DNA from: a virus
IMG/VR virus record: IMGVR_UViG_3300037587_000064
Location: 1-46,442 of that record
Strand: one strand, 5' to 3'
Length of the DNA stretch: 46,442 nt
The notes below the pieces were generated by a model, which was given only the letters and a program-made list of their open reading frames with translations, ran no database searches and was not told the DNA's origin. Position 1 is the first letter of the stretch; every line of letters starts with the position of its first letter. The position numbers and the translations under genes were made by a program. This document shows positions 13,346 to 44,169 of this stretch, piece after piece.

Positions 13346-13591
13346 ATGTCCGAAGCTACCATGAACACGCTATACCAGCGTACTGGTATCTTTTGGTGGG
13401 TATATGACATGCTTGCTTCGTTGTTTGAGGTAGCATTGTTTCTGCTGATGTTTGACTGGTGGACCCCCACCTCTACGTTGGGTAAGGTGATCAAATTTCC
13501 GCTTAAATGTGCGGGTATTTTCGTAGCCTTTCCCGGAACATTAACCTTAACCGCCATCGCTTATGCGTGGTGGACTGGTGCTGTAGTGTAA
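13346..13591 (+). CDS. Two-span membrane protein, 81 aa
   Basis: ATG 13346 starts 4 bases after the previous stop, with no good ribosome binding site of its own, so translational coupling is likely. Two hydrophobic helices (about 15-38 and 54-78) carry many Trp and Phe. Function unknown; it ends just before the three-way-junction RNA. Confidence 0.55.
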   Translation: MSEATMNTLYQRTGIFWWVYDMLASLFEVALFLLMFDWWTPTSTLGKVIKFPLKCAGIFVAFPGTLTLTAIAYAWWTGAVV

Positions 13592-13608
13592 CAAACTGCT
13601 GAACCGGA

Positions 13609-13696
13609 TCTCCTAGACGATAGACACGGTATCGTTTGGGCTACACTCCATATGTATCTTGTAACAGGGTACGTATGAGGTGTAGCCTCTAGGAGA
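13609..13696 (+). promoter_or_regulatory. Three-way-junction RNA that buries a ribosome binding site
   Basis: TCTCCTAGA (13609-13617) is a perfect 9-bp match to TCTAGGAGA (13688-13696), which contains the AGGAG Shine-Dalgarno of the 13703 gene. Inside this outer stem are CGATA-GACACGG-TATCG (13618-13634) and, after TTTG, a rod pairing 13639-13659 with 13667-13687 (20 pairs including G-U, one mismatch). The layout is that of a riboswitch or RNA thermometer in the OFF state. RNase III cutting of the rod could also free the start. Confidence 0.65.
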
Positions 13697-13702
13697 ACTG
13701 TC

Positions 13703-13867
13703 ATGTACAATCCGAAATTCAGTGAGTTCAACCGCACAGCCGAGTCAATCCTCAAACGTCATGCTGAAGAACTACTCACGTTTAAAACACGTTGGGTGGA
13801 ACTGAAGGATGATGATGGTCATGTCTACCAGATCGTCCCAATCTATGACATTACTTTCAAATCGTAA
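13703..13867 (+). CDS. Hypothetical protein, 54 aa, RNA-controlled start
   Basis: AGGAG (13691-13695) is 7 bases before ATG 13703 but lies in the closing stem of the upstream RNA element. The product is a small mixed-charge alpha/beta protein with no recognised domain. It is the last gene before the primase-helicase and may be the first of the replication transcript, so its control could set the timing of replication. That is inference. Confidence 0.6.
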   Translation: MYNPKFSEFNRTAESILKRHAEELLTFKTRWVELKDDDGHVYQIVPIYDITFKS

Positions 13868-13972
13868 CATGTTCTTTCATGTGACGGAACTATATTTCTA
13901 TCGCATTGTCCATATTATCACTAGGTTGTTTGAAACACTAACAGCAAGCGATGATACTGGAGCAAAGAATTC

Positions 13973-15781
13973 ATGGGACAAGTTGTTGAAGAAAGGGAAT
14001 GTAACAGTTCCAAGTGTAGTTCGAGCGATGCCTTGAAGGTGTACCTTCAGGAAGATGGCTCGTTCAATGCGTCGTGCTTCTCATGTAAGGGATTCGACCC
14101 TGATCCTTACAACAAGTTAGAGATCCCGGCAGCCATCATACTGCCATCGGGTGAGCGTGTCCCCAAGACCAGCTCAACCCATCTCGATACCCCTCGCGTG
14201 AGAAGCATACCGATCCGCAGTACCCCTATCTTGCAAGATAAGCAATCCGTTCTGGATGAATGCTTAACCTACCCCATTAGAAATATCCTTGATCGTGGCA
14301 TAACAAAAGAAACGTGTGAACATTATGGTGTACGCGTAGCCCTCTCTCCTACTGATGGCAGCACCATCACCTCACATTTTTATCCTCGTTACCGTAAGGA
14401 TAAGCTTACCGGATTCAAAGAACGTATCGTTGAGTCTAAACGTTTCTTCTCCAAGGGTGACTGCAAAGACGTAGAACTCTTTGGTCAGCACGCGTGTAAG
14501 GCCGGAGGCAAGAAGCTCTGGATCACTGAGGGTGAGTGTGATGCCCTCGCACTGTATCAAATCCTCGTCACCCACTCCACCCTCCAAGGGTGGCAGCCCG
14601 CAGTAGTCTCCCTCTCTAACGGCAGCGCTTCAGCTGTCAAAGACATTACCCTATCATTTGATTTCGTAGATTCATTCGATGAAATAATTCTCTGCTTCGA
14701 CATGGATGAGCCCGGCCAAGAAGCAATCAAGGACGTGTGTCCTCTACTGGCTGGCAAGGTATCCATTGCTAAGTACGCAGAGAAAGATGCTAATGACATG
14801 CTGCTCAAAGGCAAGTCCTCCGAGCTGTACTGGGACGTCATGAAGCACGCACGTGCATACATGCCTGACAACATCATCAACTATGGTGACTGTTGGGAAC
14901 GGTACAAGACTGGCAAGAATAAGAAGTGTTACCCCTACCCCGAAACATGGACCGATCTTAATGCCAAGACCTATGGCGTACGATCAGGTTCACTCGTCAC
15001 TATCACATCTGGCTCTGGTATGGGCAAGACTCAGTTCATGCGTGAGCTGAAAGACCACTACCACCGTACCACTGACTTCAAGTTTGCTGACATCGCCCTC
15101 GAAGAGGATGCAGGTGACACTATGGCAGGCATGATGTCCATCTATCTTAACAAAAGAATTGAACTACCTGACGTAGAGGTGTCTATTGAAGAAGAACAAG
15201 AAGCCTTCGACTATTATTATTCCAGTGGCAGGTGGTTTGGGTACGATCACTTCGGAGGGATGGACGACTCTAATCTCTTCTCTAAGATCCGTTACTTCGC
15301 GGCTAAGGGATGCAAATTCATATACCTGGACCACCTCTCTATCATCGTATCAGAGTATGCAGCTCAAGGTGGAGAGCGTGAACGAATAGATACTATCATG
15401 ACTAAGCTAGCCAAGCTGGTCAAGGAGTTAGACATTGTTATATTCCTCATTGTCCACCTCAAGAAAACAACAGGGGGCTTCAATGCACCATCATTTGAAC
15501 AAGGCGCAACGCCTTCTCTCGATGACCTCCGAGGCTCTGGAACGCTTAAGCAACTCAGCTGGGACGTCATTGCTCTCTCTCGAAATCAACAGCATAGTGA
15601 CAGCTACTGCGCTAATACAAGCAAGATTACGGTGCTTAAGTGCCGCTTCACTGGACGGACTGGAGACAGTGAATGGCTCCACTTCGACGGTAAGACAGGA
15701 CGTATGAGAAAGGTACCTGAGCCTGCTGGGTATGACGAGCATGCAGCTAAGAAAGATTCTAATCCGAGGAGTAGACTATAA
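13973..15781 (+). CDS. Primase-helicase, T7 gp4-like, 602 aa
   Basis: This is a bifunctional enzyme that primes lagging strands and unwinds the fork as a hexamer. An N-terminal zinc ribbon uses C10, C15, C35 and C38; the first pair is C-x4-C. The Toprim domain follows, with ITEGECDAL near residue 183 and CFDMDEPG near 241. A DnaB-like helicase has Walker A SGSGMGKT near 348, Walker B FIYLDH near 450 and the arginine-finger region RGSGTLKQLSWD near 525. Length is close to T7 gp4 (566 aa). GGAG lies 10 bases before ATG 13973. It heads the replication block and overlaps the next start. Confidence 0.95.
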   Translation: MGQVVEERECNSSKCSSSDALKVYLQEDGSFNASCFSCKGFDPDPYNKLEIPAAIILPSGERVPKTSSTHLDTPRVRSIPIRSTPILQDKQSVLDECLTYPIRNILDRGITKETCEHYGVRVALSPTDGSTITSHFYPRYRKDKLTGFKERIVESKRFFSKGDCKDVELFGQHACKAGGKKLWITEGECDALALYQILVTHSTLQGWQPAVVSLSNGSASAVKDITLSFDFVDSFDEIILCFDMDEPGQEAIKDVCPLLAGKVSIAKYAEKDANDMLLKGKSSELYWDVMKHARAYMPDNIINYGDCWERYKTGKNKKCYPYPETWTDLNAKTYGVRSGSLVTITSGSGMGKTQFMRELKDHYHRTTDFKFADIALEEDAGDTMAGMMSIYLNKRIELPDVEVSIEEEQEAFDYYYSSGRWFGYDHFGGMDDSNLFSKIRYFAAKGCKFIYLDHLSIIVSEYAAQGGERERIDTIMTKLAKLVKELDIVIFLIVHLKKTTGGFNAPSFEQGATPSLDDLRGSGTLKQLSWDVIALSRNQQHSDSYCANTSKITVLKCRFTGRTGDSEWLHFDGKTGRMRKVPEPAGYDEHAAKKDSNPRSRL

Positions 15782-24072: not shown

Positions 24073-24131
24073 AAAAAGGGCCTACCGGCCATAGGGAAAT
24101 TAATCCTTATGACTGGTAAGCCCTTTTTTTT
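24073..24131. terminator. Bidirectional intrinsic terminator at the arm junction
   Basis: AAAAAGGGC (24073-24081) pairs with GCCCTTTTT at the other end, and the interior continues as an almost perfect stem around a small AATTAA loop. The rod is more than 20 bp long, with T8 on the + strand and T5 on the - strand. It lies 21 bp after the end of the last right-arm gene and 250 bp after the left-arm end, exactly where convergent transcription must stop. Confidence 0.92.
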
Positions 24132-43693: not shown

Positions 43694-44169
43694 TTAACTA
43701 ACCTTAATAGGTCACCCTCTACTTCCGCATGGATGCCTGCCTGCTGTTTGAGTTCCGCATTCACCTCTGCTTTAGAGGGAGCACCGCGCTTCTTATCTAC
43801 CCAACCTTTCTCAGCCAACCACTTAGCAGAGGTCTGGCCTTTAGGGGATAGGGAGTGGGAGATCAAAGCTTTGATGCCCTGAGAACGTACACGTACTTCA
43901 AGTTCTTCTTGCCAGTCAGCTAAGTGAGGGGCGAACCACTTACACTTTCTCAGTGCTTTCCAGTGGTTCCATCCGCCTAGATGATCGACAGCAAACTCAT
44001 ATTCAGTGAGGTCTTCGCTGTCTAGATATAGTTGCTTAAGGGATGGGAGTCCCTTATGCTCTGACTCTTTAAGAGTATATGAAGCTCGGGCTTTGTTCTC
44101 AGGAAAGCACATCTCCCAGAACAATCCCTTAGTGTACCACCGACCCATAGAGTCTTTAAACTTATCCAT
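43690..44169 (-). CDS. terS: Probable terminase small subunit, 159 aa
   Basis: GGAGTAACCC precedes ATG 44169. Directly before TerL, with a helix-turn-helix-like region (KGQTSAKWLAEKGWVDKKRG near 110-130) and a helical C-terminus with acidic residues for oligomerisation. The assignment is by context and helix pattern; it would recognise the packaging site. Confidence 0.72.
   Translation of the reverse strand: MDKFKDSMGRWYTKGLFWEMCFPENKARASYTLKESEHKGLPSLKQLYLDSEDLTEYEFAVDHLGGWNHWKALRKCKWFAPHLADWQEELEVRVRSQGIKALISHSLSPKGQTSAKWLAEKGWVDKKRGAPSKAEVNAELKQQAGIHAEVEGDLLRLVK

Follow-up and report, generated by a model that had tools for sequence, protein, structure and literature searches.

A three-way-junction leader precedes the replication genes

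The 46,442-nt stretch of viral DNA analyzed here (IMG/VR record IMGVR_UViG_3300037587_000064, hereafter the window) carries a cis-acting RNA leader before its replication genes, predicted to fold as a three-way junction that hides a Shine-Dalgarno (SD) sequence. Comparison with related phages supports this element, which is conserved in shape with changed letters. The window is a T7-like podophage genome, coded on the plus strand in its left half and on the minus strand in its right half. Where the two gene blocks converge lies a strong hairpin (24073-24128) that resembles a two-way terminator and carries runs of A and T. As the first-pass annotation had placed it, the leader directly precedes the replication genes: beyond a 54-aa gene come a primase/helicase and then a DNA polymerase gene. 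The features are as follows.

13609..13617, plus strand: outer stem, 5' (anti-SD) strand, TCTCCTAGA; from sequence and minimum free energy (MFE) folding
13618..13634, plus strand: short arm, CGATA-GACACGG-TATCG, 5 bp with a 7-nt loop; strands CGATA (13618-13622) and TATCG (13630-13634) flank loop GACACGG; from MFE folding
13638..13688, plus strand: rod of 23 pairs, the size of an RNase III substrate; from folding
13688..13696, plus strand: outer stem, 3' strand, TCTAGGAGA, with the SD inside; from sequence and MFE folding
13691..13695, plus strand: SD AGGAG, 7 nt upstream of ATG 13703
13703..13867, plus strand: 54-aa gene downstream of the leader, starting at ATG 13703
13879..13912, plus strand: second conserved element, lying between the 54-aa gene and the primase; a hairpin whose loop is GGAACUA, flanked 3' by UGUCC
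13973..15781, plus strand: primase/helicase, T7 gene 4 type (PHROG 239, E 1.6e-160)

The perfect 9-bp outer stem that holds the AGGAG of ATG 13703 can be read directly from the letters, with TCTCCTAGA and TCTAGGAGA pairing throughout. The three-way junction is also the unconstrained MFE structure of positions 13590-13730 (-59.4 kcal/mol, z -6.83), and none of 200 shuffles was equally stable. When the whole 46 kb record was scanned on both strands in 110-nt windows (mean z of all windows -0.5, sd 1.3), 13591-13700 ranked second among plus-strand structures, with z -8.3. The previously proposed architecture of outer stem, 5-bp arm with a 7-base loop, and rod was thus recovered, with small adjustments. 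In the MFE register the outer stem has 8 bp and the arm 6 bp, A13617 pairing with U13635 rather than U13688; the 8+6 and 9+5 divisions are equivalent. The rod, described earlier as having 20 pairs, has slightly more: 23, including 5 G-U, with two unpaired bases (one mismatch) and a 3-nt loop.

The SD is predicted to be more than 99% paired from 15 to 45 °C, with an unpaired probability of at most 0.006 at 45 °C. Its calculated opening cost (6.8 kcal/mol) is the second highest among 41 window genes scored, and the corresponding SD in the closest named relative, phage GX1-k141_326647 (PQ867844, Zobellviridae; locus L003; 75% identity over primase DNA), ranks second of 61 genes. A scan of the leader for promoters gave nothing above background.

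The protein encoded behind the leader belongs to a family seen only before the primase, in related phages. It is predicted to form a helix and two long strands (pLDDT 91); profile searches of Pfam and PHROG gave no match, and Foldseek against PDB and viral models returned no recognizable RNA-binding fold and nothing usable. Upstream of the leader, an 81-aa ORF (13346-13591) encodes a small, membrane-protein-like product with a WWxPxTLxGxLxK-type motif, and the same type of small ORF recurs just before the leader in loci L001, L002, and L003. The second hairpin, before the primase, is found in at least 11 relatives, at approximately 3892-3928 in L003, 2905-2940 in L002, 2881-2915 in L001, 2285-2312 in L005, 476-508 in L006, and 2832-2863 in L008. 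The stem differs in sequence from locus to locus; the near-invariant parts are GAACU in the loop and GUCYAA downstream of the stem. RNAalifold returned no consensus for the element.

Conservation of shape among related phages

Relatives were gathered by primase searches and degenerate patterns, and their leaders were folded one by one; a scan of genome contigs gave no close relative. Sixteen related phage loci share the gene order of a 54-aa homologue followed by primase/helicase. Unconstrained folding gave a junction built of outer stem, then short arm, then long rod, and closing upstream of the start codon, in PQ867844/L003, L002, L001, L005/L216, L006, L008, L222, and L217. Two further leaders (L208 and L011) can be drawn as the same junction, by our reading rather than by MFE alone, and six (L009, L010, L204, L213, L085, and L242) keep the rod without a clean junction. 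Loci with the junction mostly have the primases nearest to that of the window, at about 57-78% identity; in the remaining loci the identity is mostly 52-57%. Rods have about 20-35 pairs in most loci; measured as a single helix, those of L010, L085, L208, and L222 are shorter, and some rods are imperfect or have just 12-17 pairs when counted this way.

Occlusion of the SD is more variable. Pairing of at least 97% is predicted in the window, L003, L002, L008, and L222, and partial pairing in others. The SD of L208 is covered only in part, and that of L005/L216 is not part of the junction and falls instead in a small hairpin of its own downstream, so partial occlusion persists there by another route. 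Predicted placement of the SD inside the outer stem is therefore not strictly conserved.

Pairwise evidence for maintained pairing comes from the short arm. Between the window and PQ867844, four of the five arm pairs are altered on both sides and all remain paired, around an identical GACACGG loop; the arms were aligned by sequence alone around that loop, the comparison involves two sequences only, and slid controls fail to pair. In a helix table covering ten loci, both partners have changed at each paired position of the three stems; the table is descriptive rather than a test, given that the helices were selected for pairing. The first-pass annotation had named an absence of compensatory changes in relatives as evidence against its proposal; such changes are present.

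Because a search of 518 kb of loci with a covariance model built from the window and PQ867844 recovered those two alone, the leader family is united by shape and not by letters, and descriptor scans with a measured background were used. A strict geometric descriptor matched 33 sites in 3.26 million strand-bases of loci, about one per 100 kb. Five distinct matches are the leaders of the window, L003, L005, L008, and L217, where by our arithmetic ~0.02 would be expected. A looser descriptor tied to the start codon matched the window and 6 of 16 relatives, compared with 3 of 1,600 random windows and, among other SD-ATG leaders, about 5 of 850. Since the window and several relatives had been inspected before either descriptor was written, the ratios as such flatter the result; the size of the gap is independent of that. 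With the length fixed at 225 nt, at least 6 of 15 relatives also had the architecture as their MFE structure, whereas it arose in ~2-3% of shuffled leaders. Two approaches were dropped: a MAFFT alignment of whole leaders, which is not structure-aware and misplaced the stems in all but the closest pair, and a loose count of rods across whole genomes, which did not discriminate.

These data bear on whether the leader could be a product of chance or an inverted repeat acting in DNA, such as a terminator or a replication-origin hairpin. Phage hairpins can serve as DNA elements, but position and shape are conserved here with changed letters, shuffles fail to reproduce the fold, and the rod is not followed by a U-run. 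In addition, for 16 of 17 leaders the coding-sense strand gives a more stable fold than the complementary strand, the bias expected from selection on G-U pairs, which points to RNA and not DNA. We regard this explanation as largely refuted and give it almost no weight.

A probable translational mask and its possible opening

The leader most likely acts as a translational mask on the 54-aa gene, judging from the predicted folds, and perhaps also on the primase by coupling. Transcripts reading through from upstream would fold at 13609-13696 into the three-way junction, whose outer stem is predicted to tie up the SD, a step supported by the conservation of shape; initiation at the 54-aa gene would thereby be kept low. 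The two-turn rod would make the leader a likely substrate of host RNase III, and a double cut there would detach the SD-bearing strand of the outer stem from the anti-SD strand, leaving the SD free. The freed SD could then switch on the 54-aa gene and possibly the primase, through coupling or message stabilization. A mask of this kind relieved by RNase III cutting is the reading that we favor, at a confidence approaching but not reaching an even call.

Several features make RNase III the best candidate for opening the mask. Rods are substrate-sized, that of the window (23 bp) exceeding the approximately two turns (at least 20 bp) required of a substrate, and a 3' fragment beginning within the rod is predicted to leave the SD weakly structured. 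Sequestration of the ribosome-binding site, the other feature of an RNase III-gated leader, is predicted for the window, L003, L002, L008, and L222, the SD of L005 not being in the outer stem. Long early-strand rods occur at matching places in the window (2177-2258 and 3451-3566) and PQ867844 (43761-43870 and 42231-42352), which we count in favor of RNase III, as in phages whose early message is cut by that enzyme. There are also precedents: RNase III unmasks a ribosome-binding site in phage lambda cIII and E. coli adhE (PMC5371410), and the T7 early message is cleaved by RNase III at hairpins between phage genes (PMC4858673). Opening by a cut in the rod is plausible by analogy, from size, position, and known cases.

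The likeness to these systems is partial. What sets the window apart from lambda cIII and adhE is an SD placed within the stem that closes a three-way junction, with the rod as a separate arm alongside; cleavage is a candidate event here. With T7, the resemblance lies in a hairpin between phage genes before a small gene that precedes primase/helicase; the T7 RNase III site R3.8 occupies that position. The T7 gene 3.8 leader, however, folds as a 12-bp hairpin without an SD-hiding junction and rod, whereas the window has a junction with a 23-bp rod. Within the family, the predicted exceptions count against the favored reading: the SD outside the junction in L005/L216, the partial cover in L208, the loci without a clean junction (L009, L010, L204, L213, L085, and L242), and the rods that are imperfect or reach just 12-17 pairs as a single helix.

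Other repeats were seen in these genomes. The rod at 3451-3566, with more than 30 near-perfect intergenic pairs on the plus strand, is the strongest structure of the window (z -11). A perfect palindrome, TATCTTAAGATA, occurs at 2254, 3565, and 5468, two of the three copies directly after the rods at 2177-2258 and 3451-3566. In PQ867844 the matching rods are followed by another palindrome, GTTGTCTAGACAAC (near 43771 and 42243). Given that the palindromes differ but both follow matching rods, the pairing of rod and palindrome appears to have been kept with changed letters. Near the left end, three 21-nt units, inverted repeats themselves (GCGGCAAACTATTGCCGC), stand in tandem at 647-707.

Alternative modes of control

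The main rival to RNase III opening is control by a protein. Autogenous leader control occurs with ribosomal proteins and T4 repressors, and a phage protein, conceivably the product of the 54-aa gene, could bind the arm loop and rod of the junction and stabilize or open the mask. This possibility, which we consider improbable on balance, would fit the invariable position of the conserved junction, immediately upstream of a member of this single gene family. The loops of the arms are short, and most of them include GG (GACACGG, AUCGUGG, AGGUAGGG, AGGUGGAA, AGUCGAGG, and GGACGGA); the window and PQ867844 share GACACGG unchanged despite the altered stem around it. Against this, the loop motif is loose, is missing from L008, and was spotted only in hindsight, and Foldseek gave no recognizable RNA-binding fold for the 54-aa protein. 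An unlikely alternative dispenses with any opening on cue: the leader could passively set a low, constant translation rate, shield the message from decay, or both. Retention of rod and stems while their lengths, loops, and exact SD placement vary widely among relatives agrees with such a role. Yet occlusion above 99%, with an opening cost of about 7-10 kcal/mol, would nearly silence a conserved gene, and a merely weak gene would require just a weak SD.

The first-pass annotation had suggested that the leader might sense a metabolite or temperature. Three-way-junction translational riboswitches and S15/rpsO-type protein-bound junctions can likewise sequester an SD, and the layout of the window leader resembles that of known riboswitches. 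It differs from both in having no conserved ligand or protein core in its unpaired nucleotides and no Rfam counterpart. Rfam 15 covariance models gave no match above the gathering cut-off in the window, L001, L002, L003, or L008, and merely chance matches to eukaryotic families at a permissive E-value. No conserved unpaired core was found at the junction or loops across relatives, where letters vary apart from the loose GG of the arm loop, and a search by eye for loop-to-leader pseudoknots found no covarying partner. A metabolite riboswitch is unlikely because the unpaired letters are hardly conserved, and an RNA thermometer because no melting of the stem is predicted, the SD still being paired at 45 °C. 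Neither sensing proposal is supported, and together we judge them very improbable.

Implications

The claim that no phage element of this form has been described holds for Rfam 15 and the open-access literature, in which we found none; this is not proof of absence, since subscription papers fell mostly outside that scope. The claim needs narrowing in one respect, in that masking of a ribosome-binding site until RNase III cuts is already known from lambda cIII and adhE (PMC5371410). A structure-masked SD leader is accordingly a known principle, and its three-way-junction form is, as far as we checked, new. More speculatively, and at rather low probability, the junction could represent a new class of phage cis-regulatory RNA, conserved in shape and specific to a Zobellviridae-like podophage branch. 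With a phage factor bound to it, possibly the 54-aa protein, it would time the onset of translation of the replication genes, in concert with the second hairpin before the primase.

The leader provides a comparative, covarying RNA structure that would gate a phage gene right before the replication genes, in a phage group whose gene control has been little studied. Two companions of the primase in this group are defined as well: a small gene family and another conserved RNA hairpin. It further raises a testable question, namely whether host RNase III may act as a timer of replication genes in phages beyond the T7 and lambda groups.
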